Source: Thiohalobacter thiocyanaticus
GTDB lineage: Bacteria > Pseudomonadota > Gammaproteobacteria > Thiohalobacterales > Thiohalobacteraceae
Assembly: GCF_002356355.1 (NCBI RefSeq)
Contig: NZ_AP018052.1
Coordinates: forward strand, 1-64,000
Length of the DNA stretch: 64,000 nucleotides
Direction: 5' to 3'
Both the position numbers and the translations under genes were made by a program. The notes beneath the pieces were generated by a model. That model did no database searches. It worked only from the letters and a program-made list of their open reading frames with translations, and was not told the origin of the DNA. How positions within the stretch are numbered: the stretch's first letter is position 1; each line of letters starts with the position of its first letter. Below are positions 1 through 13,236 of the stretch, piece by piece.

Positions 1-630
1 ATCCCAGAAGGTCCAGTGCGCACGCGCGGTCAGGCGGGGTGAATCCTCCACCACCTCATCGCCTTCGCGGCCATCCGAGACCATCACGCGATACTGGAAC
101 TTCGCATCCGCCATGTTGCCCCACATGGCGACACCCGTGTCACGCGTGCCACCAAAGGGCGTGTAGGCCAGTCTTTCCGCACGATCCAGCGTCAGCGGCT
201 CCAGGCAGGCCTCGAGATTCTCGCGGGTGAAGGTGTTCTTGAACCGTCCCGCGATGAAGCGCACGCTGTCCGACCAGTCCAGGGTCAGGTAGGCGTCGCG
301 GTAGAACACGTTCTTGTCATTGACGCCTTCCTTGCTGTCATTGCCCGCCTCGAGTTGGGCATAGAAACCGACATAGTCGTTGTACTGGCCGGAGAGCGTG
401 ATCCGGTTGCGGCGCAGGAACAGGTCGGTGGTTTCACCGGAGTCGGTATTGGAAGTGTAGTCCTGATACTGCCCCCACATCTGCACGGCATAATTCAGTG
501 TCACGAAGCCCTGCTCGCCGTAGGTGATGGTGGGCCCGGCCTGCACGTTGGATACAGCTGCCATCATGACTGCCAGCGGAAGCGCTCCCTGACGGATGCG
601 GCGAAATTGACTGTTCATCGTTTTCTTCAT
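1..630 (-). CDS. extI: ExtI-like outer-membrane porin, 3' end outside the window
   Basis: The frame is open from an ATG at 630 to the window edge, giving 210 residues of the N-terminal part. A basic start (MKKTMNSQFRR) and a hydrophobic stretch ending VQA make a signal peptide. The mature part has alternating aromatic and polar residues typical of a beta-barrel (LFLRRNRITLSGQYNDYVGF, then VRFIAGRFKNTF). This resembles the phosphate-porin-like ExtI proteins of selenite/tellurite reduction loci, which are thought to form the outer-membrane pore of an electron conduit or a solute channel. The gene starts five bases after the triheme cytochrome stop, so it is the last visible gene of that operon. 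The porin class is fairly secure; the ExtI name rests on neighbours and recognition. Confidence 0.75.
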   Translation of the reverse strand, partial: MKKTMNSQFRRIRQGALPLAVMMAAVSNVQAGPTITYGEQGFVTLNYAVQMWGQYQDYTSNTDSGETTDLFLRRNRITLSGQYNDYVGFYAQLEAGNDSKEGVNDKNVFYRDAYLTLDWSDSVRFIAGRFKNTFTRENLEACLEPLTLDRAERLAYTPFGGTRDTGVAMWGNMADAKFQYRVMVSDGREGDEVVEDSPRLTARAHWTFWD

Positions 631-634
631 CTTC

Positions 635-1174
635 TTACTCCCCCGTCGCGTCTGTAAGCTTCCGGTACACATCGACCAGATTCGTCTCATCCGATCCATG
701 GCAGCTGAAGCAGGTGGATTCCGGCTTGGAGGCGGGATTGGCGACCAGCCCCCGGTGTGCAATCGATTCCTTCATGAGGCGCGGATTACCCTGGTGGCAG
801 CCGGCGCAGGAATTGTTCACCTTCTGGTGATGCACATGCCAGGGATCCTGCTCAGGATCCTCGCCGGGCTTTTCTGCGCGGTTGCCGTTATGGCACTTGA
901 AGCAGGAAGAGGCACCCAGACCGCAGGCATTGGCGACACGGATCGGAATGCCGGCCGCGACGTGCTTGTGGATCTCCTCAAGCACCTGATTACCCCAGGC
1001 CGAGGCCTGTACGGCCGTTTCCGCATCGGACTGGGCCAGTGCCCCGACCGCGTCGTCGGAGAGGGTATCGTTCAAATACGACCATGCCGCTCCGCCGGCA
1101 ATGGCCACGCCCGACAGCACCGCCAGCAACCGCATCTGCCGCAACAGGCCGCTCCATATCTTCTTCAACATCAT
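635..1174 (-). CDS. Triheme periplasmic cytochrome c of the Ext-like operon
   Basis: This 179-residue protein has one N-terminal hydrophobic segment (residues about 15-33) that anchors it or exports it, and three haem-binding motifs: CFKCH (91), CAGCH (123) and CFSCH (155). The start is preceded by a strong AGGAGGAGA ribosome site. The pattern of a membrane-anchored tri- or tetrahaem protein suggests electron delivery from the inner membrane or periplasm to the neighbouring pentaheme cytochrome and porin. That role is inference from context. I do not recognise an exact family name; it could be a divergent NapC/NirT-type or a locus-specific cytochrome. Confidence 0.8.
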   Translation of the reverse strand: MMLKKIWSGLLRQMRLLAVLSGVAIAGGAAWSYLNDTLSDDAVGALAQSDAETAVQASAWGNQVLEEIHKHVAAGIPIRVANACGLGASSCFKCHNGNRAEKPGEDPEQDPWHVHHQKVNNSCAGCHQGNPRLMKESIAHRGLVANPASKPESTCFSCHGSDETNLVDVYRKLTDATGE

Positions 1175-1195
1175 CTCTATCTCCTCCTGATTGAC

Positions 1196-1471
1196 TCACT
1201 GATCCCGGATAATGGATTCAAGCTTCTCCGTACCATCTTCACGCCTGCTTTGCGCGGCCTGGATATCCGCCTCGCTCAGCCCGCTCAGGCACATGCAGGC
1301 CGGACCGCGGGAGCGGAACTTCAAGCGCGGGGAGCGCGGCTCTGCCTTCTGCTCCCCACCCGCCGCTGCGGTCGGCTCGGTTTGCTGATCTGCATGCACC
1401 GTCCCATGGACGGGCATCAGCGCCAGAAACGTCACCGCAACCAGAGTCGGCCGCATTGCCGTTTTCCACAT
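1196..1471 (-). CDS. extJ: Small exported ExtJ-like protein
   Basis: The 91-residue product has a signal peptide (MWKTAMRPTLVAVTFLAL to about HGTVHA), an acidic and alanine-rich linker, and a conserved-looking C-terminal part with CMCLSGL followed by EADI. An upstream in-frame ATG (1486) and GTG (1498) exist, but they would put acidic residues in front of the signal peptide. ExtJ proteins are small periplasmic proteins of unknown function found beside ExtI porins, and the size and position here fit. The two cysteines in CMC could bind metal or make a thiol pair, which is a guess. It sits between the pentaheme and triheme cytochrome genes. Confidence 0.6.
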   Translation of the reverse strand: MWKTAMRPTLVAVTFLALMPVHGTVHADQQTEPTAAAGGEQKAEPRSPRLKFRSRGPACMCLSGLSEADIQAAQSRREDGTEKLESIIRDQ

Positions 1472-1615
1472 CGCCTCAATGTCCATCAGCCTGATCACGC
1501 CCCAGTCTAAAGCACATAGCGCGCCAATATATATAACTTACTGTTTTTAAATAATAATCAAGGCAAAGCACCCGCTCGGGACAATTGCAATTCAGGCCTT
1601 TAGCTGCAGCCCGTC

Positions 1616-2869
1616 TCAATTTGCAATCCCGTGTGTCAGCGCCCGCTCGCCCAGGCGCAGGACATACCGGGTGTTCCGCGCCTCCGCCAGCGCGGCCGCC
1701 AGGATGGTGCGCGTCTCCCGGTCCAGCTTCACCTCGCTGTCGTTCAGCACCCCCGCGAACATCCGTTCATAGTGCTCCTTAGGGGCGACATCCACCTGCA
1801 CGTACAGTCGCCACTCGGTCGATCCGATCTCCGGCAACAGGCCCTCGAGCTTCTGTGCCGCATCCGGCGCCAGCCGGGTATCACTGTATTCCTCGCTGAG
1901 CCAGATGTCCGTCTCCCGGCTCACGATCGCCTCGTCCAGGACATGCCGCTCGCCCCCGGCACCGCCCTCGGCGACCAGCTGCAGCCTGACCCTGGGCACC
2001 AGATAGGTGGGGAAATAATGCCCCGCGCCCGTATTGCGGATTTCGGCGCGCACCCGCACCCGGCCCGCCGCTTCCGCCTCGGTCCTGATGCCTGCGCTCA
2101 GCGCCTGGCGGACCATCCCCGGATCGTGGATACCCTTCCATTCATGCCTGCGATCGGGCATGTGACAGGTCTGACACTGCCTGCCTTCCCGGGCATGACG
2201 CGAGGCGCGCCATTCGTTCAGCGTGTTTTCCAGCAGCTTGCCATTGAGCGCCGGGCCGTCCTCCGGAAACTGGTGGCAGCTGGCGCAGAACCGGCTGTCG
2301 GCGAAGGCGGCACTCGCGACAAAGCCGTCGTGGGGCAACCCCGGAGTATCCCCGGCGGGCCGTCCCGGCCCGGGCGGCGGCCCGAAACGCTGGTGGGCAC
2401 GGACATGGCAGGCGGCACAGACCAGGCCCTGCCGGTGCAGATCTGGGCTGACATATTCCGGCGGCGGATCCTGCGGCGCCTCGGGCCAGCCGAGCGACTG
2501 CGCCAGCAGGGCCTTCTGCTCGGCCAGCGGCGCATGGCAGTCCAGGCAGCGCTTGACCTGATCCGAGGGCAGCACCCGCGCCTGCCAGAGGATGCCCTTG
2601 TCCATGGTCCGGCTGTGCAGACTCCCGCTCCAGTCCCGGTGCTGCTCGGCGTGGCACTCGGCGCAGGACTGCGGTGAAAGCGAGGCCTCGCGCGGACTGA
2701 AATGATCGGGGGGCGCGCCCTGCGGCGGCAGCGGCTTGCTCCAGTGGCGCTCCAGGAAGGCATCGACACCCTCGGCGCTGCGACCCTGACCATGACTGGA
2801 AACCATCCACCATGCACCTCCGGCCGCCACCAGGGCGATCAGGAGGAGCGCTGCTGCACCCGGCCTCAT
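1616..2869 (-). CDS. extK: Pentaheme cytochrome c, ExtK-like
   Basis: This 417-residue protein starts with a signal or anchor helix (residues about 5-23). It contains five CxxCH motifs: CAECH (69), CLDCH (108), CAACH (151), CASCH (195) and CQTCH (232). The C-terminal 170 residues carry no haem and look like a beta-rich domain (ETDIWLSEEY, VDVAPKEHYERMF). Multihaem cytochromes of this layout are encoded with ExtI porins and rhodanese-like ExtH in Geobacter, where the clusters support metal or selenite/tellurite reduction. It probably relays electrons across the periplasm to the porin. The haem count is direct; the ExtK name and role are inference. Confidence 0.75.
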   Translation of the reverse strand: MRPGAAALLLIALVAAGGAWWMVSSHGQGRSAEGVDAFLERHWSKPLPPQGAPPDHFSPREASLSPQSCAECHAEQHRDWSGSLHSRTMDKGILWQARVLPSDQVKRCLDCHAPLAEQKALLAQSLGWPEAPQDPPPEYVSPDLHRQGLVCAACHVRAHQRFGPPPGPGRPAGDTPGLPHDGFVASAAFADSRFCASCHQFPEDGPALNGKLLENTLNEWRASRHAREGRQCQTCHMPDRRHEWKGIHDPGMVRQALSAGIRTEAEAAGRVRVRAEIRNTGAGHYFPTYLVPRVRLQLVAEGGAGGERHVLDEAIVSRETDIWLSEEYSDTRLAPDAAQKLEGLLPEIGSTEWRLYVQVDVAPKEHYERMFAGVLNDSEVKLDRETRTILAAALAEARNTRYVLRLGERALTHGIAN

Positions 2870-2890
2870 GATCTGATTTGTCTCCCCTCA

Positions 2891-2925
2891 ACAAAAGAAG
2901 ACCCGGCTACCTGGCGGTAGCCGGG
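2891..2925 (-). terminator. Hairpin with U-rich tail between the rhodanese and pentaheme genes
   Basis: A perfect 10-base inverted repeat (2902-2911 with 2916-2925) encloses a 4-base loop. Read on the minus strand it is followed by TCTTCTTTTGTT. It lies in the 110-base gap after the rhodanese stop, so it may end or attenuate transcription before the cytochrome genes. Confidence 0.6.
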
Positions 2926-2979
2926 GACGTAATGATACGACGTCAAGTGGGGACCCGGACAGTACCGGGCCTGGAGGAG

Positions 2980-4455
2980 TCAGCCCCCACAAGGGTTGGG
3001 CGGAAGGGCGCCGCCGCCACCGCTGCTGCCGCCGTCATCGCTGGAGCTGGAGCCGGTCTTGTAGGCCTTGTCCGCCAGGATGATGGCATTGGTGTTGTCG
3101 GCATAGGCATCGTCGATCTGGCGCGGCTCTACCTCATTCGGATCGGGCTGCTCCTGGTAGAAGGACACCACGTCAGTCCGCCAGGGCGAATCGATGGGCA
3201 GGATGTAGTCGCCGCTCCAGTCCAGCAGATAGGACAGGGAGCTCCACTCCACCATGGCACCGTCGTAGAAGCGGGTCGGCTTACCCAGGATCACCGCACT
3301 GGTCACACCCGTGATCATGGCACGGAAGGTGGTTTCACAGTAGGTGTAAACGGTATCGCCGTCCTGATAGGCATTACCCACACCCACAGGCTGGTAGGTG
3401 TTATCCACGAAGGCCTCGCCCGAATCAGTGGCGCCGCCATTGAGATAGGCCTCCAGTTCAGCCTTGTCCTTGTAACGGTACCCCTGAGTCGAATCCAGGA
3501 AGTTGGTGAAGTTAAGCTGCAGCGCACCCCAGGGATGCCCCTGGCGTGAGCCACTGTTCTGGAAGGTATCCGTGAACGGAACGACCGGCGTACCGGTACC
3601 GTCATCCTCGCCGGCGCTGTACTGATTCATGCCGCGCGCGTCCCAGATGAATACCCCGTCATCCAGCACATTGGTGTCACTGCTTGGCAGCACCGCAAGC
3701 ATATCCTGCACGGTTGCCTGCAACTGGGTATTGTCAGCAGCCAGCGACTTGACGCTGACAATACCACTCTCCGGCGGGGTCGATGCGGTATCGGTAAAAT
3801 CAGCACCCGTCATGCCGTTACCGTTCAACCAACCATTACCGCCGTTGAGGATGGCCAGATGTTCAGCCTCCACGCCCCAATAGCGCAGTGCATACCAGAC
3901 CCGGCCCTGGCGCATGGCATTACCCGTACCACCTGTACCCATGGCAACAACGATCATATCCTTGTGCGGATCGATGTTATATTTCTTGAGTTGGGCATCC
4001 ATAGTGGCCCCGCTGGGGACCATGCTGCGGGTATAGATCACGCCGTTGGAGCGGGTTTCAATCCATTCGTTACCATCAGACAGATAGGTAAATACGTTCT
4101 TATCATCGGGCAGGATGTACTCGGAACCCCCCGGGCCCTCCGTGACCTGCAGAATCACCAGTTTTCCGGTGATGCCCGCCGGCCTCTCATTCAGCCAGTC
4201 ATCCTTCCAGCGCTTCAGGGTCGCACCGGTGATCAGGCCGTTCTCGTTGTCGTTGTAGTCATCCGCGGATTCCTGCGCAATCTGTGCAGGACTGTTGACG
4301 ACGATCGGCGTCGGCTCGCCGCCCGGCGGCGTCACAATACCAGTAGTGCTGTCCTCGCCACCGCCGCAACCCACCAGCACTGATGCGGACAACAGGTACG
4401 CGCCCACCATCGCAGCGGATCGCGGCCATCTCAAAGCATTCAGGTATGTATTCAT
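2980..4455 (-). CDS. extH: Rhodanese-like lipoprotein, ExtH-like
   Basis: The ATG at 4455 has a GGAGGAGAG ribosome site. The N-terminus ends in a lipobox (SVLVGC, then GGG), so the protein should be lipid-anchored. Two rhodanese-type domains follow: a first without catalytic cysteine (about 100-230) and a second (about 270-440) with the active-site loop YCETTFRA. The C-terminus is a Ser/Gly-rich tail ending CGG. ExtH proteins of selenite/tellurite loci have this make-up. The enzyme could move sulfane sulfur or bind selenium or tellurium intermediates outside the inner membrane. It is the first gene of the Ext-like group. The 205-base gap upstream (4456-4660) holds no other clear gene. Confidence 0.78.
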   Translation of the reverse strand: MNTYLNALRWPRSAAMVGAYLLSASVLVGCGGGEDSTTGIVTPPGGEPTPIVVNSPAQIAQESADDYNDNENGLITGATLKRWKDDWLNERPAGITGKLVILQVTEGPGGSEYILPDDKNVFTYLSDGNEWIETRSNGVIYTRSMVPSGATMDAQLKKYNIDPHKDMIVVAMGTGGTGNAMRQGRVWYALRYWGVEAEHLAILNGGNGWLNGNGMTGADFTDTASTPPESGIVSVKSLAADNTQLQATVQDMLAVLPSSDTNVLDDGVFIWDARGMNQYSAGEDDGTGTPVVPFTDTFQNSGSRQGHPWGALQLNFTNFLDSTQGYRYKDKAELEAYLNGGATDSGEAFVDNTYQPVGVGNAYQDGDTVYTYCETTFRAMITGVTSAVILGKPTRFYDGAMVEWSSLSYLLDWSGDYILPIDSPWRTDVVSFYQEQPDPNEVEPRQIDDAYADNTNAIILADKAYKTGSSSSDDGGSSGGGGALPPNPCGG

Positions 4456-4660
4456 CTGCTCTCCTCCGCGAGCTATTTTGGAACCCGCCACGAACACCCG
4501 GTTATCGGGGTCCCAGGGGCGGCACTTCGATCATTCAGTTAGCAGCCTTCGTGCCACAATCTGTTCAGCTGAAAAAACATGAAGTTAGATGGAAGCCATC
4601 CCTTGGCGGCGATTGCAGACTACCCGTTCCGGCGGCAGGCTGTGGAAATTGCAATACTGT

Positions 4661-4873
4661 TCAGGCGCCCTGCTCGCCCCTGAAGACCACGGGCAGGGCG
4701 CCGGCCTCGAACTGATCCAGCAGATAGTCGACCCGTTCGCCGAACGCCAGCGACTCCACCTCGGCCCCACGCGCCCGCAGGGCGTCGGCCAGGCGTGAAA
4801 GATCTATGCTCTCGCCTGCCTTAACAGGCTTGTGCGGCGCATGTATCAGTAGAATCTTCTTGGAATCCGTCAT
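4661..4873 (-). CDS. Small protein of the sulfur-carrier cluster
   Basis: The 70-residue product starts at an ATG preceded by AAGGACAG. It begins with a beta-strand-like stretch (KKILLIHAPHKP), continues with an amphipathic helix and ends FRGEQGA. It contains no cysteine. Its place after two DsrE-like genes mirrors the DsrE-DsrF-DsrH (TusDCB) order, so it may be a degenerate third partner. The sequence alone does not prove this, and no function is assigned. Confidence 0.55.
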   Translation of the reverse strand: MTDSKKILLIHAPHKPVKAGESIDLSRLADALRARGAEVESLAFGERVDYLLDQFEAGALPVVFRGEQGA

Positions 4874-4884
4874 ATTCTGTCCTT

Positions 4885-5151
4885 TCAAATCACGTAGACC
4901 GCATCGGCGCCGATAATGGCATCCGCCAGCCGGCCCATGCCTTCATCGGTTTCCGCCGCAATGCTTTCCACCGGCGCCTCCGCGAATTCCAGCGCCTCCA
5001 TCTGCATCAGCGTATCCTGATCATCGCCAAGCTCACCCAGCACGGCGACCCTGACTTCATCATCCAGCAGCGTCAGCCCGGTCGCCATACGCAGCGCCTC
5101 CGGCTTGTTGTGCTGAGCTATCACCAGAATCGTTTTCTGTGTATTCGACAT
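4885..5151 (-). CDS. DsrE-like small protein
   Basis: The 88-residue product begins with ILVIAQHNKPEALRMATG, the strand-turn-helix opening usual in DsrE-fold proteins, and ends ADAVYVI. The ATG at 5151 has AGGAG six bases ahead. No cysteine is present, so it probably cannot carry sulfur itself and may be a structural partner of the DsrE-like protein encoded just upstream. The stop is 12 bases before the start of the next small gene. The assignment is by fold impression only. Confidence 0.55.
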   Translation of the reverse strand: MSNTQKTILVIAQHNKPEALRMATGLTLLDDEVRVAVLGELGDDQDTLMQMEALEFAEAPVESIAAETDEGMGRLADAIIGADAVYVI

Positions 5152-5159
5152 TCCCACTC

Positions 5160-5471
5160 CTAAAGCACCAGGACACAGTCACTGTTCTGCACGAGTTCGG
5201 CATCCTGGTACTGACCGCCGATCACCACATGTTCATCAATAGAGGAAACCTTGAGCCCCTCGTTTTCGTAGCGCTCGACACTGAGCTCACACACCGCCAC
5301 CTGCGTAGCCCTGAAGGCATCCGATTGCGTGAAACCGTTGTCCATCAACAGCAATGCCCCCCTGTCGTTGAGAAAGCATCTGCATTCCCAACCCCGGCCC
5401 TGGGCCGTGGCGAGAATGGATACCGCCTGATCGCGATAGCGCTCGTCGGTTACCACCAAGCCAAAACGCAT
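5160..5471 (-). CDS. DsrE/TusD-like sulfur-relay protein
   Basis: This 103-residue protein starts after AAGGAG. It has an ILATAQGRGWECRCFLNDRG segment and a single cysteine in VAVCELS, at about the place of the persulfide cysteine of DsrE/TusD. Those proteins accept sulfur from TusA. A TusA-like gene lies 67 bases upstream on the same strand. It probably takes part in cytoplasmic sulfur or selenium transfer. No dsrAB or dsrC is in the window, so a link to reverse sulfite reduction cannot be shown. Confidence 0.6.
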   Translation of the reverse strand: MRFGLVVTDERYRDQAVSILATAQGRGWECRCFLNDRGALLLMDNGFTQSDAFRATQVAVCELSVERYENEGLKVSSIDEHVVIGGQYQDAELVQNSDCVLVL

Positions 5472-5538
5472 GCATACTCCTTAATCCATTACAATCACTT
5501 GATCATAGCCGCCTCCGAAAGGAGTCAGCCGGCGGTCA

Positions 5539-5790
5539 TCAGGCCTTGCGGATCAGCCACTTCGAGGCACCGTCCTCATTCGTCTTTTCGATGAGTTCGT
5601 TGCCCTCGGATTCACACATCGCCACGATCGACTCACCGGATGACGGATTGTCAAACAGCAGGGTAAGCACATCGCCGCTCGTCAGCTTGCCCATGGCCTT
5701 CTTGGTATACATCTGCGGATGCGGGCAGACGTATCCGGTGACATCCAGCAGGAAGTCGTGATCACCAACCTTCTCGAATTTGACAGCCAT
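5539..5790 (-). CDS. TusA-family sulfur carrier
   Basis: The 83-residue product has the TusA signature DVTGYVCPHPQMYTKKAM, in which the cysteine of CPHP carries the persulfide. The end (ASKWLIRKA) is also typical of the small TusA/YeeD fold. It starts 46 bases downstream of the YeeE/YedE transporter. YeeD-YeeE and YedF-YedE pairs of this type bring in thiosulfate or are linked to selenium. That a carrier and transporter work together here is inference from the pairing. Confidence 0.85.
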   Translation of the reverse strand: MAVKFEKVGDHDFLLDVTGYVCPHPQMYTKKAMGKLTSGDVLTLLFDNPSSGESIVAMCESEGNELIEKTNEDGASKWLIRKA

Positions 5791-5836
5791 AAGGTATTAC
5801 TCCTCCATTTCTCAACAACTCAAAATCCCGACCCGG

Positions 5837-7306
5837 TCAAAGCGCCAGGTCATCATCACCAGCGCGCCATTCCATCCACATATTGAATGCCTTGACGCCC
5901 AACCAGCCGCCGGCAGCCATGCCGGCCAGGAACACCCAGCCCGACAGATCGCCGTTGGTAACCGTTGCGAAGAAGGCGCCGATATTACAGCCCATCGCGA
6001 TTCGCGCCCCCAGCCCCATCAGGGCACCACCGATGATGGCGAACATCGCAGTCTCCAGACTCGGCACCTTCCATTTGAATTCCCGCCGGGACAGGGCAAT
6101 GATCGCCGCGCCGAAGATGATACCGATGGACATCCAGCCGGGCGCGTTGATGATCGGATTCGGAATACCGTTCTCCAGTCCGAAGAAGATGTTGTCGGTC
6201 ATCTCGATGCCGACCTTGTCCATGGCCCAGGCGCCCCACTGCGCCTCCTGGGTGGTGATGTACCAGTAGCCGGGATCGAAGACCGTATCCTGCATCGACA
6301 GGCCATCTGTGTATTCCATCTCGGCGAGCAGCTCACCGAAGTTGAAGATCTCGTATTTCTCGCGCAACTCGCCGGTCGCCCACATATGGCCGCCAGCCAG
6401 CAGTCCCAGACACAGGCCGGCGATGGCGGTGTTGCGCGAAGAGGTGACCATCGCCCAGATACCGCGCAGGTGATCACCCATACGCGGCGCCTCAATCTTG
6501 GCGCGGCGCAGATAGCCCTTCTTGAACGCCGAGTTATACAGGTACAGCATCAGCAGCAGGGAGGGGATGATCGCGCCCAGCAATGCATTGCCGATGAACG
6601 GACCCGTGAACATGCCGTCAATGCCCAGCTGGCCGGCCAGCTGGCCGCCCTGCAGGTCCCAGACATAGCCGGCAACGAACTGGTCGAACCAGCCTTCCGT
6701 GACGCTCAGTTCTTCCGGCATCATCTTCTCGGCGGCGGAACTCGTCCAGGCGGCGGGCACCAGCTTGTCCAGCCAGCCGGACTGGGCCACGTAGATGGCC
6801 TGGGAGAAGGAGATGGAGATCACCACCAGCAGCGAACCGAGGTTGCCCTCACCGGTCTTGTACAGCGAACCCGACGCGCAGCCGCCGGTGAACACAATGC
6901 CGAAACCGAAGATCAGCGCACCGACGAGGATATGCCAACCCATCGGATGGGGATGGAAGGTATTCACACCCATAACCTGCACGGCGGCTGCCGTGAGCGA
7001 GAACAGCATGACCGCGATCAGCATGCCCACCGCCATGCGTGGCACGCCCACCGCGAACAGGTCGCGCACCGCAGAGGCCATACAGAAACGCCCGTACTGC
7101 AGGAAGATCCCGTAGCCGAGGCCGAACCACACATACACCAGCAGGTAGATCCACCGGCTGTCCAGCGCCAGCGCCCATACCGAACCCAGCGCCACAAGCG
7201 CGACGATGATCATCGCGTACAGATTACCCTTGTGACCGTACCAGGCCCTGTCCGCCACCGCCGAGCCTACCGCGCCCGCCGTCGCAGCCTTAGCATCATT
7301 CGCCAT
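5837..7306 (-). CDS. YeeE/YedE-family thiosulfate or selenium-linked transporter
   Basis: This integral membrane protein of 489 residues has many hydrophobic helices. It contains the three conserved cysteine sites of the family: YGRFCMASAVRD, VFTGGCASGSLYKTG and AMGCNIGAFF. In TsuA (YeeE) such cysteines line the path for thiosulfate. An unusual soluble insert of about 60 residues (near 300-360, MWATGELREKYEIF onwards) and another near 190 make it longer than short YeeE proteins and closer to YedE-type double-repeat proteins. It lies between two TusA-like genes. Substrate cannot be decided from sequence; thiosulfate and selenium species are both plausible. Confidence 0.85.
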   Translation of the reverse strand: MANDAKAATAGAVGSAVADRAWYGHKGNLYAMIIVALVALGSVWALALDSRWIYLLVYVWFGLGYGIFLQYGRFCMASAVRDLFAVGVPRMAVGMLIAVMLFSLTAAAVQVMGVNTFHPHPMGWHILVGALIFGFGIVFTGGCASGSLYKTGEGNLGSLLVVISISFSQAIYVAQSGWLDKLVPAAWTSSAAEKMMPEELSVTEGWFDQFVAGYVWDLQGGQLAGQLGIDGMFTGPFIGNALLGAIIPSLLLMLYLYNSAFKKGYLRRAKIEAPRMGDHLRGIWAMVTSSRNTAIAGLCLGLLAGGHMWATGELREKYEIFNFGELLAEMEYTDGLSMQDTVFDPGYWYITTQEAQWGAWAMDKVGIEMTDNIFFGLENGIPNPIINAPGWMSIGIIFGAAIIALSRREFKWKVPSLETAMFAIIGGALMGLGARIAMGCNIGAFFATVTNGDLSGWVFLAGMAAGGWLGVKAFNMWMEWRAGDDDLAL

Positions 7307-7339
7307 CTGTCGTTTCCCCCGGATATCTCGAATCGCTCA

Positions 7340-7675
7340 TCAATTTTCCGCGTCCATTGCGCCCTTACGCACGTAGATACGCCAGCAGCCATCATCCCGC
7401 ACCGTGATCAGGTGGGTACTGCCCAGCGTCATATCCATTGCCGGAATCGCCTCGGCCGTGCTGGGGTTGTCCACCACCAGCTCCAGTACTTCGCCTGGCT
7501 GCATGTGATCAAGCGCCCGCATGCACAACAGCTGCGGACGCGGACAGACCGCGCCCAGGCAGTCGATCTGCACATTCACATGCAGAGACCCATAACCGGA
7601 CAGCGTTACCGTGCGTCCACTTTGCCTGATCGGGGACACCTGTCGCTGCCTTTGCCTGCTGAACCACCACATCAC
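7340..7675 (-). CDS. Second TusA-family sulfur carrier
   Basis: The core is QIDCLGAVCPRPQLL with the persulfide cysteine in CPRP, and the end is CWRIYVRKGA. The frame opens at GTG-ATG (7675/7672) after GGAGAGG. This would add about 30 basic and aromatic residues before the TusA core. A GTG nearer the core (about 7579) has no ribosome site, so the longer start is kept. It is the first gene of the minus-strand sulfur cluster, 33 bases before the YeeE/YedE gene. Confidence 0.8.
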   Translation of the reverse strand: MMWWFSRQRQRQVSPIRQSGRTVTLSGYGSLHVNVQIDCLGAVCPRPQLLCMRALDHMQPGEVLELVVDNPSTAEAIPAMDMTLGSTHLITVRDDGCWRIYVRKGAMDAEN

Positions 7676-7949
7676 GCAGCCTCTCCACGGCAGGACGAGT
7701 CAGCAGTGACGGCACCCGCCTGCCCACTCTGTTTGCACGTTTCGTGCCGATTTGAATTAAATATAAAAAACATTGTGTTACCCCTCATTGCACGATTGGC
7801 TTCCGGTTCATATTGCAAATCACGGCCTGACGGCAGAGCCAGAGCAAGATTTTGCAATCCCGCCGCCACCCCTGTTCACCGCTTAGTTGTAGACCACCCT
7901 GCCGGCACCGCGACGCCGGACGCGGGAAAATACAGCACGGCGGGCGTGC
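7676..7949. other. Intergenic region between divergent sulfur cluster and peroxiredoxin
   Basis: No gene was seen. The part at 7755-7775 is AT-rich (ttaaatataaaa) and could hold the minus-strand promoter of the sulfur cluster. A short palindrome GCACG-TTT-CGTGC lies at about 7736-7748. Two ATTGCAA-type sites (7812-7818 and 7852-7858) recur in other gaps of the locus. Confidence 0.4.
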
Positions 7950-8023: not shown

Positions 8024-8629
8024 ATGGGTGTACTGGTAGGACGCGAAGCCCCGGATTTCACCGCCCCGGCCGTACTGGGCAATGGCGAGATCACCGACAA
8101 CTTCAATTTCAGGACCGCCACCAAGGGCAAGTATGCCGTGGTGTTCTTCTACCCGCTGGACTTCACCTTCGTGTGCCCGTCCGAACTGATCGCCTTCGAT
8201 CACCGCCTGGACGAGTTCAAGAAGCGCAACGTCGAGGTCATCGGCGTGTCGATCGACTCGCACTTCACCCACAACGCCTGGCGCAACACCCCGGTGGACA
8301 AGGGCGGCATCGGCCAGGTCAATTACACCCTGGTCGCCGACATGACCCACCACATCTGCCGCGCCTTCGATGTCGAGACCCCGGACGGCGCCGTCGCCTT
8401 CCGCGGCTCCTTCCTGATCGACGAGGCCGGCGTGGTGCGCCACCAGGTGGTCAACGACCTGCCGCTGGGCCGCAACATCGACGAGATGCTGCGCATGGTC
8501 GACGCCCTGCAGTTCCACGAGCAGCACGGCGAGGTCTGCCCGGCCGGCTGGAACCAGGGTGCGAAGGGCATGAAGGCCAGCCCTGAGGGCGTGGCCGAGT
8601 ACCTGGCCGAGGAGGCGGAGTCGCTGTAA
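8024..8629 (+). CDS. Typical 2-Cys peroxiredoxin (AhpC/Prx1 type)
   Basis: The 201-residue protein reduces hydrogen peroxide and organic peroxides in the cytoplasm. The peroxidatic cysteine is in DFTFVCPSE (about residue 50) and the resolving cysteine in GEVCPAGW (about 170), so both are present. The ATG follows CAAGGAG at proper distance. It is transcribed alone, divergent from the sulfur-carrier cluster, and has its own terminator. No AhpF or thioredoxin reductase gene is adjacent, so its reductant is unknown. It may protect the sulfur/selenium locus from oxidative by-products, which is only a contextual idea. Confidence 0.93.
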   Translation: MGVLVGREAPDFTAPAVLGNGEITDNFNFRTATKGKYAVVFFYPLDFTFVCPSELIAFDHRLDEFKKRNVEVIGVSIDSHFTHNAWRNTPVDKGGIGQVNYTLVADMTHHICRAFDVETPDGAVAFRGSFLIDEAGVVRHQVVNDLPLGRNIDEMLRMVDALQFHEQHGEVCPAGWNQGAKGMKASPEGVAEYLAEEAESL

Positions 8630-8781: not shown

Positions 8782-9006
8782 TTATCCCCACTTGATCTTC
8801 AGATCCCGATTGCGTTCCGCGCAATCCCGAAGATACAGATTGATCAGGCTCTGATACGGAATACCCTTCTGCTCGGCCAGCGCCTTGAAATAGGCGACCG
8901 TATCCTCGTCGAGCCTTATCGTAATCTGCTTCTTCAGTTTTTTGGTATAGGGATTTTTCTTCGATTTAGAAAAGTCGTAGTGATCACGCATCTCTGAAGC
9001 CCTCAT
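8782..9006 (-). CDS. brnA: BrnA-type antitoxin
   Basis: The 74-residue product starts MRASEMRDHYDF and contains KKQITIRLDEDTVAYFKA, a ribbon-helix-helix DNA-binding segment, followed by GIPYQSLINLYL. This is the BrnA antitoxin pattern, which binds BrnT and represses the shared promoter. The start lies within the last codons of the toxin gene (overlap 8984-9006), so the two are translated together. A second ATG five codons on (8991) is possible. Confidence 0.85.
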   Translation of the reverse strand: MRASEMRDHYDFSKSKKNPYTKKLKKQITIRLDEDTVAYFKALAEQKGIPYQSLINLYLRDCAERNRDLKIKWG

Positions 9007-9286
9007 ATTGACGCCGCTCCGAGCGGCTTGCCTTACGGGCTGAAATGATTCGAATGGTTTCCTGCTCTTCCCTGCAGCAGTGACAGACAACAAGCAGTCG
9101 CAATTGCGAACTCAGGCCCAGCAGAACAAACCGATCCTCTTCATCCGAGTGATCCGGGTCCGCCATGAAACGCGCATTTTCATCGAAAAATGCCGTCCTC
9201 GCCTCCTCGAAAGAAACGCCGTGCTTCTTCCGGTTTGCCGCATCCTTGCGGCTATCCCACTCGAAGTTGAGCCCATCCATAGCCAT
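8984..9286 (-). CDS. brnT: BrnT-type ribonuclease toxin
   Basis: The 100-residue protein has the BrnT layout: FEWDSRKDAANRKKHGVSFEEA at the start, a central RFVLLGLSS strand pair, and IRIISARKASRSERRQYE near the end. BrnT is a RelE-like ribonuclease that blocks growth until bound by BrnA. The AT-rich stretch just upstream (9290-9312, tatataattac) probably holds the promoter. It sits next to, but apparently outside, the attC cassette array. Confidence 0.88.
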   Translation of the reverse strand: MAMDGLNFEWDSRKDAANRKKHGVSFEEARTAFFDENARFMADPDHSDEEDRFVLLGLSSQLRLLVVCHCCREEQETIRIISARKASRSERRQYEGFRDA

Positions 9287-10498: not shown

Positions 10499-11023
10499 TT
10501 ACCCATTTCTTTGCCTCAGCGCGCGATTATTATTGATAAGAAAGGCGGGCTTTGAATTAGCTTGCTCAATGAACCCTTGTACGGACTGGATACTTTGTGT
10601 AAATGATGCCCAGTTGGTCCAGATTGCAAACCCAGATTCAATGTTGTCATGCAGCCTGTCTGGAACGATATATTTCGAGTTTGCACTTAACGGATTGCTA
10701 GGAAGATTTACACCAATTAAACCATGCTGCTTATCTAAAGTGGCTTTGATTTCCCAGTCAACGAACTTCCGGTAAGGAGTTTGCGCGCCGCAAAGTACAA
10801 TTGTAGAGGAGCTGCCTGTTATAAAATTCTCTCTAATTCTGCGAATGACGTAATCTGTATTTGAACTGTCTATTGCTCGCTCTACAGAATTATCATGTAT
10901 AACATCGTAGGCATTGGAAAAGGCATTTATAAAAGCGTCATAGTATGCTTTGTCGCCACCGTGATGATAGCTAACAAATACCTTTCTCTTTATGCCTAAA
11001 CCGGAAAGTAACCCATTAGCCAT
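10499..11023 (-). CDS. ThsB-like TIR domain protein
   Basis: The ATG at 11023 follows AAGGAG and gives 174 residues. The TIR-like (DUF1863/ThsB) pattern is clear: KRKVFVSYHHGGDKAYYDAF as first strand and loop, SSSTIVLCGAQTPYRKFVDW as the central strand, the probable catalytic Glu in VDWEI, then HGLIGVNLP. In Thoeris defence, ThsB senses phage and makes a cyclic-ADP-ribose-type signal for an effector. The start is one base after the stop of the SLATT gene, so the two are coupled. No ThsA gene is present; the SLATT protein would have to be the effector. The enzymatic activity is inferred from family. Confidence 0.82.
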   Translation of the reverse strand: MANGLLSGLGIKRKVFVSYHHGGDKAYYDAFINAFSNAYDVIHDNSVERAIDSSNTDYVIRRIRENFITGSSSTIVLCGAQTPYRKFVDWEIKATLDKQHGLIGVNLPSNPLSANSKYIVPDRLHDNIESGFAIWTNWASFTQSIQSVQGFIEQANSKPAFLINNNRALRQRNG

Positions 11024-11024
11024 A

Positions 11025-11471
11025 CTATGCTCCTTGCTCGTTTTTTGATTTTTCAATTGCTGCTTGGGTGTATTGAGACCACGCACTGTTTTCTTTGGAA
11101 ATTAAGCTCTCCACACGTTGCACAAATAAACGAAAAGGGTTTTCTTCGTGGTATGGCTCTGCCTTTGTGAGATAGAGGAATTTTTCGTGCTTAAGAGATT
11201 CACAGGTAGTTCGGTATTCCGTCCAGTTTTCTTGAAACTGATTTAAGCTAACAACCGAAGATATGACGGCAATTAGCGCACCCAACAGACCAACAACCAA
11301 AGTCACGGGGAAAGGATCTTTAGCAAAGCCCGCTATTAGTGGTATGGATGCTGCCGAGAGAATCTCTATACCCCGGAGCCATTTAAACCAACACTGGGCT
11401 TTTTGGCTTTTCGTGTCATACCAATCTATTTGGTCGTCAACTCTCGACGAAATGTACTCTTCTTCATTCAT
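11025..11471 (-). CDS. SLATT/DUF4231 two-helix membrane protein
   Basis: The 148-residue protein opens YISSRVDDQIDWYDTKSQKA, a DUF4231 hallmark. Two transmembrane helices follow (about residues 36-50 ILSAASIPLIAGF and 58-75 LVVGLLGALIAVISSVVS), then a long helical C-terminus. SLATT proteins are predicted pore-forming effectors of nucleotide-signalling conflict systems. It starts 21 bases after an attC site and is the first gene of a two-gene cassette with the TIR gene. Base composition is clearly AT-richer than the flanking core genes. It has no obvious sensor domain, so a TIR product would have to act on the membrane part or the helical tail. Confidence 0.8.
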   Translation of the reverse strand: MNEEEYISSRVDDQIDWYDTKSQKAQCWFKWLRGIEILSAASIPLIAGFAKDPFPVTLVVGLLGALIAVISSVVSLNQFQENWTEYRTTCESLKHEKFLYLTKAEPYHEENPFRLFVQRVESLISKENSAWSQYTQAAIEKSKNEQGA

Positions 11472-11491: not shown

Positions 11492-11599
11492 CTTAACGTT
11501 TTAGTTGAGCCGCCGCCCTCCGGCCAAAAATTTTTCATCCATCCCACTTGGCGGGGACCACCCAATGCCTGTACGGTCGGCTCGAACGCCTTGTTGCAC
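11492..11599 (-). other. Integron attC site inside the transposase gene end
   Basis: On the minus strand GTGCAAC (11599-11593) and GTTAAGC (11498-11492) are the outer boxes. GTTCGAGCCG near one end pairs with CGGCTCAAC near the other with one extra C, the standard attC bulge. The roughly 108-base site has a long central part. Its orientation agrees with the two downstream sites. Confidence 0.85.
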
Positions 11600-12733
11600 A
11601 AGCCCCACCTCGTGCGCGGCCGGCGAGGGACTCTTTATATAGGATTTTTTGCGACGGGTGCTGCGATAGTGCAGTAGGGCCGCGCCGCAATCCGGACAAA
11701 CCCGCGTTGCCTTGGGCGGAAGTATGACCTCCTCACCCCGAGGCCGTCCCAGCTGCTCGCGGACGCAATCGCGCTTGTCGCGCGCTCCGGGCACGTAGAG
11801 CCCATAGTAGCGCAGATTATGCTGGCCTTTCACGGGAACATGCCACAGCAGCCGTCGGATAAACTCCTCAGTCTTGAGCGTTATTGACTTGTCTTTCCCA
11901 TCCCGATGATCGCGATAGCGAAAGCTCACCTGCTCGTCGTCATAACGGATCAACCGCGCATCCTTGATCGGCCCGCCACGGAGGTAGCGGGACAGATAGT
12001 TGGTCACGCCGCTGCCGTGATCGTAGGGCCCCTGGATACATACATTCCACCCTTTACGTGCCACCCGGGCAAGCACACGCCGCCAGTCACGGTCCTGCCA
12101 ATGTCTCGGCAGTCTCAGGTCTCCCTTAGCATAGGCCACGTTCAACCAATTCAGCCATTTCCCCCGGAACTTGGCTTTGAGTACGCCAACGGGTAGCAAA
12201 AAGGGCTTCTTCAGTTCGCGCCAGTCCTCACCCGACACGCCGCCTCCTGTCACCAGCATGTGGACATGCGGATGAAACGACGCTGTCCGCCCCCACGTGT
12301 GCAGCGCGGCCAGGATCCCCACCTCAGCGCCGAGGTAACGCTCATCGCGTAGCAGCTCCCGTAGCGTTTCCGCCGCTGCCTTGAATAAATGATCGGCGCT
12401 CCATTGGCGATTGTATTGCCAAAGCTCATTCAACTCATGCGGCAATGTGAATACCACATGGTAGTGCGTGCACGGCAGCAGCCTTGCACGCGTCTTGTCC
12501 AGCCATTGCTGATTGTAGGCATGCTGACACCGTGGGCAGCTGCGATGACGGCAGGCATGGGCCTGTTGCTCAATATGCCCGTCCCGTTCACACAGCCATT
12601 CCTCATAACCCAATTCATTCTCACAGCATTGCATTATTGCCATGGCTGCGTGATGTTGGTCGACACTCACTCCATGCTTATCCCGGTAGCACGCATAACT
12701 CTGTGCCAGGATGTTCTTCAGGGTCGCCTCCAT
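11501..12733 (-). CDS. IS91-family (Y2/HUH) transposase with attC-encoded C-terminus
   Basis: From an ATG preceded by GGAGGAGG the gene encodes 410 residues. The N-terminal zinc-binding part has CRHRSCPRCQ. The HUH motif is in FHPHVHMLVTGGG, and YDHGSGVTNYLSRYLRGG contains the catalytic tyrosine region. A zinc-ribbon-like VCPDCGAALLHY lies near the end. The last 30 or so codons (from about 11599) are encoded by the attC site, so the native C-terminus is probably replaced. Family members move by rolling-circle transposition and can take flanking genes along. No clear element ends were found. Confidence 0.88.
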   Translation of the reverse strand: MEATLKNILAQSYACYRDKHGVSVDQHHAAMAIMQCCENELGYEEWLCERDGHIEQQAHACRHRSCPRCQHAYNQQWLDKTRARLLPCTHYHVVFTLPHELNELWQYNRQWSADHLFKAAAETLRELLRDERYLGAEVGILAALHTWGRTASFHPHVHMLVTGGGVSGEDWRELKKPFLLPVGVLKAKFRGKWLNWLNVAYAKGDLRLPRHWQDRDWRRVLARVARKGWNVCIQGPYDHGSGVTNYLSRYLRGGPIKDARLIRYDDEQVSFRYRDHRDGKDKSITLKTEEFIRRLLWHVPVKGQHNLRYYGLYVPGARDKRDCVREQLGRPRGEEVILPPKATRVCPDCGAALLHYRSTRRKKSYIKSPSPAAHEVGLVQQGVRADRTGIGWSPPSGMDEKFLAGGRRLN

Positions 12734-13236
12734 GCGATCCTCCTCCGTGTTTTTTTTATGTGCTATTATCTTGTAATCGCTCGCCAATGTACGTTAGCGA
12801 TCACTTCTCTTAACCTTCCTTTTATTTGTGCAACAGTGTGTTAGACGGAATCCGTATTATTGGTAATAGTGCGGATTCCATCTATCATGCAATACTCCCG
12901 ATTCCGCCTATTCTGGCGCATCCACACCCGAATCTTCACCTAAAATACCACACGAATCAACGATGTCACCCTGCCCGATCCGTATTGCATCGTATCGTGA
13001 TAGGCCGCCAGAACCAAACCCGGCAGGGTTATTTTGACGACATATTAAATGATAGACGGAATATCGAATCGCCCAGCGCACAGAATTCCGCTGAGTCAGA
13101 AAACGGACATTAAGTTTATGATTTCCTTCGCCGACACAATTCGGCTACATCAGCTATCAAGAAATCACTAATAGAAGCACGTAATTCTGGCTATACCGGA
13201 TCTTGTCGGTCTTTATTCTTCTGGTAGCCGAACCGA
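12734..13236. repeat. Gene-free region with inverted repeats upstream of the transposase
   Basis: No convincing gene was seen in these 503 bases. Arms 12843-12854 and 12872-12883 form an inverted repeat with one mismatch. A 20-base segment at 12875-12894 recurs in inverted form at 13043-13062 (about 17 of 20 bases). These could be the oriIS-type end of the IS91-like element or a small separate palindromic element. Confidence 0.5.

Follow-up and report, generated by a model that had tools for sequence, protein, structure and literature searches.

A co-regulated gene cluster joining YeeE-TusA-DsrE-like and Ext-like proteins, a candidate route for sulfur uptake in Thiohalobacter thiocyanaticus and other sulfur-oxidizing Pseudomonadota

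The genome of Thiohalobacter thiocyanaticus carries, across the origin of its sequence record, a cluster of 13 genes in which known modules stand in a new co-regulated combination. The window analyzed here is a stretch of 64,000 nucleotides starting at base 1, the origin, of a single contig of 3,233,441 bases (NZ_AP018052.1), and most of the cluster occupies its first 7,675 positions. The first half is the known YTD cluster (yeeE-tusA-dsrEFH type II), which encodes an inner-membrane transporter, TusA sulfur carriers and small DsrE-like proteins; the second half resembles the Geobacter ext genes and encodes a rhodanese lipoprotein, cytochromes and a porin. The two halves very likely form one functional unit. 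The sequences show which genes it contains, a conserved order, regulatory sites common to both halves, thiols and heme sites that do not vary, and an association with Dsr and Sox proteins; we hold with moderate confidence that this unit would move oxidizable sulfur from outside the cell to cytoplasmic sulfur-oxidation enzymes.

Conservation of the 13-gene cluster

The genes run along the minus strand, from 7675 to 1, in the order tusA1, yeeE, tusA2, three DsrE-like genes, an ExtH-like gene, a pentaheme cytochrome gene, an ExtJ-like gene, a triheme cytochrome gene and extI. Family matches and counts of CXXCH motifs bear out this content and order, as listed in an initial examination of the DNA alone (the sequence-only reading). 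The porin gene is interrupted at base 1; joined with the other contig end (L022), it encodes a complete porin of 392 residues. Past the origin, after the porin, lie a PAS/HisKA sensor kinase and then an NtrC-type sigma-54 response regulator, which bring the total to 13. The genes in the window are:

7340-7672 (-): tusA1, first gene of the YTD half, TusA/SirA-type sulfur carrier (PF01206, 57 bits; reading frame open to 7675)
5837-7306 (-): yeeE/yedE-family inner-membrane sulfur transporter, 489 residues (PF04143, 162 bits)
5539-5790 (-): tusA2, sulfur carrier (PF01206, 68 bits)
5160-5471 (-): DsrE-like subunit (a), DsrEFH type II-like, 103 residues, assigned by its position after yeeE-tusA and a conserved Cys
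4885-5157 (-): subunit (b) with a predicted DsrE/F fold, 90 residues, without conserved Cys (AlphaFold2 model, pLDDT 93)
4661-4888 (-): third small subunit (c), in the DsrH position, 75 residues, present in 58 loci
2980-4497 (-), likely start ATG at 4455: ExtH-like rhodanese lipoprotein, 505 residues (NF040901, 100 bits against a cut-off of 200)
1616-2869 (-): periplasmic pentaheme c-type cytochrome, ExtKL-like, with five conserved CXXCH motifs (NF040886, 45 bits against a cut-off of 250)
1196-1498 (-): small secreted ExtJ-like protein, 100 residues, with an invariant CxC (GPACMCLSGLSE), found in 56 loci
635-1174 (-): membrane-anchored triheme cytochrome with three CXXCH motifs, an extra invariant Cys84 and invariant His113, His116 and His140
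1-631 (-): extI porin, N-terminal 210 residues, the remaining 182 lying at about G000:C1:3232894-3233441

Scanning GTDB species genomes with the ExtH-like protein returned 55 loci, and a whole-genome search added three. All 13 genes are found in 44 of these 58 loci, and 50 loci are collinear on one strand (45 by script, plus five misplaced by far-upstream start calls of small open reading frames). The YTD half is inverted yet adjacent in six loci, all from Burkholderiales, and one locus (L023) is divided by a contig break. Genes absent elsewhere fall past contig ends, with the exception of the third DsrE-like gene of L080. Median pairwise identities of 43-65% across loci argue against a recent spread, and between gene families the distance matrices show correlations of 0.7-0.9, lower (0.4-0.7) where ExtH is involved. 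The ExtH-like protein of the T. thiocyanaticus HRh1 cluster is 80% identical to that of the window. In Rubrivivax gelatinosus IM 151 (L069, 9938-16626), whose genome has no dsrA, the cluster has undergone rearrangement, and both the DsrE-like genes and the regulators are missing; this loss fits a need for DsrEFH only alongside Dsr (or Hdr).

An independent sample of 369 genomes drawn evenly from the class contained ExtI over the cut-off in nine genomes and the second, DsrE/F-type, subunit in 29, all nine lying within the 29, counts to be read knowing that cluster members were the source of the DsrE-like profile and that the sampled genomes are related. The two genes lie at most about 7 kb apart on one contig in seven of the nine, and are separated by a contig end in the other two. 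The converse fails, as 20 genomes with weaker DsrE-like matches have no ExtI. Five fetched loci lacking ExtI (L142, L143, L149, L155 and L156) show another, DsrEFH type II-like setting. In these, YeeE is split into PmpAB-like halves and stands with TusA, DsrE-like genes and a membrane rhodanese; a short secreted rhodanese and a two-component pair of the sigma-54 type lie nearby, and cytochromes are missing. Beyond the 13 we found no further conserved gene, and the top-ranking clusters of unassigned open reading frames were shadow frames or host-specific. Synteny in 58 loci, together with the shared promoters described below, rules out chance neighbors, and the proposal in the sequence-only reading that the two halves form one system withstood a co-occurrence test set in advance. 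This linkage is seen within Pseudomonadota (Beta- and Gammaproteobacteria); for other phyla we rely on published work.

Shared sigma-54 promoters and TTGCAA sites

Both halves of the cluster carry sigma-54 promoters (strong sites being those that match at least 11 of 13 consensus positions) preceded by a TTGCAA motif. In the window these are:

7734-7750 (-): sigma-54 promoter of the YTD half, before tusA1 (TCGGCACGAAACGTGCA); such a site in 37 of 52 loci
7813-7857 (-): two TTGCAA sites (7852-7857 and 7813-7818) upstream of the tusA promoter
4541-4557 (-): sigma-54 promoter before the ExtH-like gene (GTGGCACGAAGGCTGCT); such a site in 15 of 58 loci
4649-4654 (-): TTGCAA site of the ExtH-like gene, 97 bp before the -24 box
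1511-1527 (-): sigma-54 promoter before the ExtJ-like gene (TTGGCGCGCTATGTGCT); such a site in 31 of 56 loci
1585-1626 (-): two TTGCAA sites (1621-1626 and 1585-1590) upstream of the extJ promoter

The sigma-54 pattern occurs in 1-2% of shuffled sequence. No such sites were found across loci before tusA2, the gene of subunit (a), the pentaheme gene, the porin gene or the kinase gene, and those registered close to yeeE and to the triheme gene are the sites of tusA and extJ viewed from further downstream. TTGCAA is present upstream of tusA in 42 of 53 loci, of extJ in 54 of 56 and of extH in 19 of 59; before control genes it is rare (yeeE 1/56, subunit (a) 5/56, pentaheme 0/57, porin 1/56). Its distance to the -24 box is about 107 bp at tusA for the outer copy in most loci, with second copies near 68 or 46, mostly 95-99 bp at extJ, and 97 or 119-120 bp at extH. 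The motif was first noticed by eye and counted afterwards, and the fixed spacing over diverse loci serves as an independent check; an enumeration of gapped palindromes as regulatory sites was uninformative. The combined pattern has five matches in the host genome, three of them at the locus. The NtrC-type regulator of the cluster presumably binds the TTGCAA sites.

Protein parts, invariant thiols and known relatives

A series of nearly invariant thiols runs through the compartments of the cell, from the porin, the ExtH-like and ExtJ-like proteins and the triheme cytochrome to YeeE, both TusA proteins, subunit (a) and the kinase. Within the YTD half, TusA1 keeps its catalytic-type Cys44 in 53 of 53 loci, TusA2 its Cys22 in 55 of 55 and Cys59 in 54 of 55, and YeeE its Cys75, Cys143 and Cys440 in 54-56 of 56. 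Subunit (a) had no match in a Pfam search; its Cys61, kept in 56 of 56 loci (Cys32 in 54), stands at the DsrE position, an equivalence with Cys67/Cys78 drawn from position and not from a structure of this subunit. The model of subunit (b) gave generic Rossmann matches in Foldseek alone, whereas VIA assigned it the DsrE/F fold expected in DsrEFH type II, with 3mc3 (DsrE/F-like) at Z 10.2 (2.4 A over 85 residues), YchN at Z 9.5 and 2hy5 DsrE at Z 7.7. The sequence-only reading had called all three small proteins DsrE-like. This label suits (a) by its cysteine and (b) by its predicted fold; for (c) it is tentative, the model (pLDDT 79) having its best fold matches, at Z 5.2, among unrelated folds. 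In a profile search of the PDB, subunits (a) and (b) and the porin had no match, and the ExtH-like protein had a single weak one (8k55, 'sulfur transferase', E 0.004).

The likeness of this half to known YTD clusters lies in the order yeeE-tusA-dsrE followed by two small genes, in the active-site Cys of DsrE and in the DsrE/F fold of the second subunit. YTD clusters have been described by Umezawa 2020 and in cable bacteria, and published reports place DsrEFH type II chiefly alongside reductive dsrAB (PMC13293266, PMC13047784). In vitro, sulfur passes from TusA through a DsrEFH-like transferase to DsrC (PMC13293266; also PMC13047784, PMC12998232). The present locus differs in a second, upstream tusA, in being joined to and co-regulated with the Ext half, and in hosts that have a canonical dsrAB-EFH-C operon with DsrEFH type I. 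The cable-bacteria work counted Pseudomonadota type II (subtype 1) and mentions no porin, rhodanese or cytochrome (PMC13293266).

The Ext half shares with Geobacter extHIJKL(MNOPQS) a rhodanese lipoprotein, an ExtI porin, a small protein of about 100 residues and a pentaheme cytochrome (PMC5877670, PMC6148476). The joined porin scores 365 bits against NCBIfam porin_ExtI (NF040900, cut-off 150), and its lone Cys is invariant in 54 of 56 loci. This score supports the Ext-like character of the half that the sequence-only reading proposed. Other Ext labels are looser: over 393 residues the ExtH-like protein scores as a distant relative and not an equivalog, the pentaheme cytochrome is far below the ExtKL cut-off, and the ExtJ-like protein has no family match in profile searches, its label resting on size, place and the CxC (Cys68 and Cys70 in 56 of 56 loci). 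The gene order differs from that of Geobacter, the triheme cytochrome is an addition, and the pentaheme gene is an open frame with no internal TGA, hence no selenocysteine, unlike ExtKL. ExtM, N, O, P, Q and S and a LysR-type regulator are absent beside the conserved cluster, where the neighbors are the YTD genes and the sigma-54 two-component pair. ExtI homologues had previously been listed by Jahan et al. in Thiohalobacter, Thioalkalivibrio, Desulfurivibrio and Desulfocapsa.

Besides its lipobox Cys44 and rhodanese-loop Cys387, the ExtH-like protein has a Cys503 in a C-terminal LPPNPCGG arm, which is a new feature of the locus. In 56 of 59 loci the C-terminus reads PCG, PCGG or PCGGG; truncation or a frameshift affects the remaining three. 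An exported protein ending in a Gly-linked Cys recalls SoxYZ, as SoxY from the same genome ends in GGCGG; the resemblance is an analogy only, the ExtH-like protein having an unrelated rhodanese fold and a lipid anchor. The last position of the NCBI ExtH model aligns 20-24 residues short of the tail end in two members, and Geobacter ExtH may therefore lack the tail. In the triheme cytochrome, the three invariant histidines would suffice for bis-His ligation of all hemes and leave Cys84 free. The sensor kinase (L022 12307-13803) is nearly devoid of a periplasmic loop and has conserved cytoplasmic Cys137, Cys339, Cys344 and Cys360; it is perhaps a thiol or metal-cluster sensor.

Two further systems come close. 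In Desulfurivibrio dismutans, a porin, lipoprotein sulfurtransferases and YeeE are co-localized (RS05145-RS05170), and one sentence of a 2025 paper proposes polysulfide import for this neighborhood (PMC12142623). That account does not cover cytochromes, DsrEFH, regulation, conservation or thiols, and D. dismutans is a sulfur-disproportionating member of the Desulfobacterota, not an oxidative Dsr/Sox organism. SoxT1A and TsuA share with our transporter the YeeE family, three conserved Cys and a TusA partner (PMC11582611), whereas the YeeE of the locus is longer (489 residues against 330-350), falls below the TsuA cut-offs and is tied to an outer-membrane part. In the literature searched, which took in few subscription papers and no preprints, we saw no account of the combined cluster, of its regulon or of the PCGG tail.

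Host metabolism and the candidate substrates

Carriers of the locus are sulfur oxidizers of the reverse Dsr (rDsr), sHdr and Sox types. Among 56 searched, dsrA was found in 49 (46 over cut-off) and SoxB in 54 (50 over cut-off), whereas selD exceeded its cut-off in only 14 of 30; the locus therefore tracks sulfur oxidation rather than selenium use, in keeping with the sulfur role that the sequence-only reading had entertained. In 25 of 30 genomes dsrAB is followed by DsrE type I over the cut-off; among them are the host and HRh1, a strain from which dsrEFH had been stated to be absent (PMC6504805). These occurrences rule out DsrEFH type II as a replacement for missing DsrEFH. Nor is DsrC/rDsr a general, obligatory acceptor, as three carriers without DsrA (G036, G245 and G413) have an HdrB-like protein. 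The host operon at 2.04 Mb has the order and sizes of dsrABEFHCMKLJOP. Another copy of dsrAB stands alone, with no further dsr genes, at 1.38 Mb (G000:C1:1380489-1382749, L161).

For the sulfur uptake that we favor, we infer the substrate, the direction of electron flow, each transfer step and the signal sensed as follows. The substrate would most likely be zero-valent sulfur, polysulfide or other sulfane sulfur. The ExtI porin would let such species in, and the outer-membrane ExtH-like rhodanese would hold sulfur as a Cys387 persulfide and pass it on by its flexible PCGG arm, in the manner of the SoxY GGCGG. The ExtJ-like CxC protein and the pentaheme and triheme cytochromes would carry electrons for the opening or rearrangement of periplasmic S-S bonds. 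YeeE would then conduct sulfur across the inner membrane via its three Cys, and the two TusA proteins and the DsrEFH type II-like complex would deliver it to the reverse Dsr (or sHdr) system, while the kinase would read sulfur status and its sigma-54 regulator turn on both halves. The YeeE-type SoxT1A offers a precedent, as it imports sulfur for oxidation (PMC11582611). Several points weigh against this scheme. The characterized substrate of YeeE/TsuA is thiosulfate, not sulfur (PMC13047784, PMC11582611), and Cys-to-Cys passage of sulfur through YeeE has been doubted (PMC11582611). Moreover, the hosts already possess DsrEFH type I and Sox, so that it is not evident why they would need another route, and the assignment of subunit (c) as DsrE-like is tentative.

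Thiosulfate, or another sulfur oxyanion, could itself be the substrate, admitted by ExtI, cleaved and taken in by the rhodanese and YeeE/TusA, with the cytochromes as accessories. The closest characterized YeeE proteins are indeed thiosulfate importers, a rhodanese fold can use thiosulfate, and the porin belongs to an anion-selective family. However, SoxB, for the oxidation of thiosulfate in the periplasm, is present in nearly all carriers, the YeeE of the locus reaches only 113 and 88 bits against TsuA cut-offs of 400 and 645, and cable-bacterium TusA/DsrEFH II proteins took no sulfur from thiosulfate (PMC13293266). We regard this alternative as unlikely.

The sequence-only reading had envisaged electron disposal across the outer membrane. 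In such a conduit, the ExtI-cytochrome part would exchange electrons with extracellular metal oxide, mineral or other cells during sulfur oxidation, and the YTD half would merely feed the electron-producing pathway. A porin and two multiheme cytochromes are conserved in the cluster, and in Geobacter extHIJKL by itself sustains as much as 50% of the reduction of Fe(III) oxide and 75% of that of Mn(IV) oxide (PMC6148476). Yet the conserved set has no outer-surface or lipoprotein cytochrome, unlike MtrCAB and Omb/Oma/Omc, no 10-heme cytochrome to plug the barrel (only 5 + 3 hemes) and, in any locus, no quinol-cytochrome module (ExtOPQ-like); ExtI is a Porin_O_P barrel, and what is conserved is invariant free thiols, not more hemes. 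An electron conduit is unlikely, and the idea of electron disposal is not supported.

The selenium link drawn by the sequence-only reading fares worse. Under it, the locus would reduce or detoxify selenite and tellurite, the role by which NCBI names the Geobacter ext operon, with YeeE/TusA handling selenium. The porin does belong to the ExtI family, and Geobacter reduces less selenite and tellurite when extI is deleted (PMC5877670). Against this, the ExtH and ExtKL homologues are far under their cut-offs, YeeE scores 143 and 49 bits against selenium YedE cut-offs of 350 and 200, the TusA proteins score 29-30 against 110 for YedF, selD is patchy where dsrA and soxB are nearly universal, and a single non-Geobacter ExtI carrier is a known selenite reducer (Jahan et al.). 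We consider this role improbable; side reactions with selenite or tellurite may occur, as with Geobacter ExtI.

Other genes lie close to the cluster in the window. A peroxiredoxin (AhpC-like; 8024-8629, +), divergent from tusA1, is not a conserved member of the cluster in relatives. It is followed by a BrnT/BrnA type II toxin-antitoxin pair (8782-9286, -) and by a ThsB-type TIR-domain protein adjoining a SLATT/DUF4231 protein with two transmembrane segments (10499-11471, -), which looks like a small TIR-SLATT anti-phage defense pair. An IS91-family (Y2) transposase (11501-12787, -) separates the sulfur locus from a P-type metal ATPase.

In its most specific form the uptake reading makes the locus a dedicated importer of extracellular zero-valent sulfur in Pseudomonadota, in which one sigma-54 switch governs a porin, a surface rhodanese whose C-terminal thiol arm resembles that of SoxY, the CxC and heme proteins and a YeeE-TusA-DsrEFH chain; this form we hold tentatively, at a little under even chances. 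Proteins for sulfur transport across the outer membrane are without experimental confirmation (PMC10045233), and SoxT1A is described as the one importer of sulfur through the inner membrane demonstrated in dissimilatory sulfur oxidizers (PMC11582611). If true, the locus would provide the first defined route for sulfur from the outer membrane to the cytoplasm in these organisms. It would also give a sulfur role to ExtI/ExtH proteins, previously known only from Geobacter metal and selenite work, and it places DsrEFH type II alongside a canonical rDsr operon with DsrEFH type I, not solely with reductive Dsr. As the complete co-regulated candidate set is found in cultured Thiohalobacter and in many Thiobacillus-like genomes, the question can be addressed by deletion.

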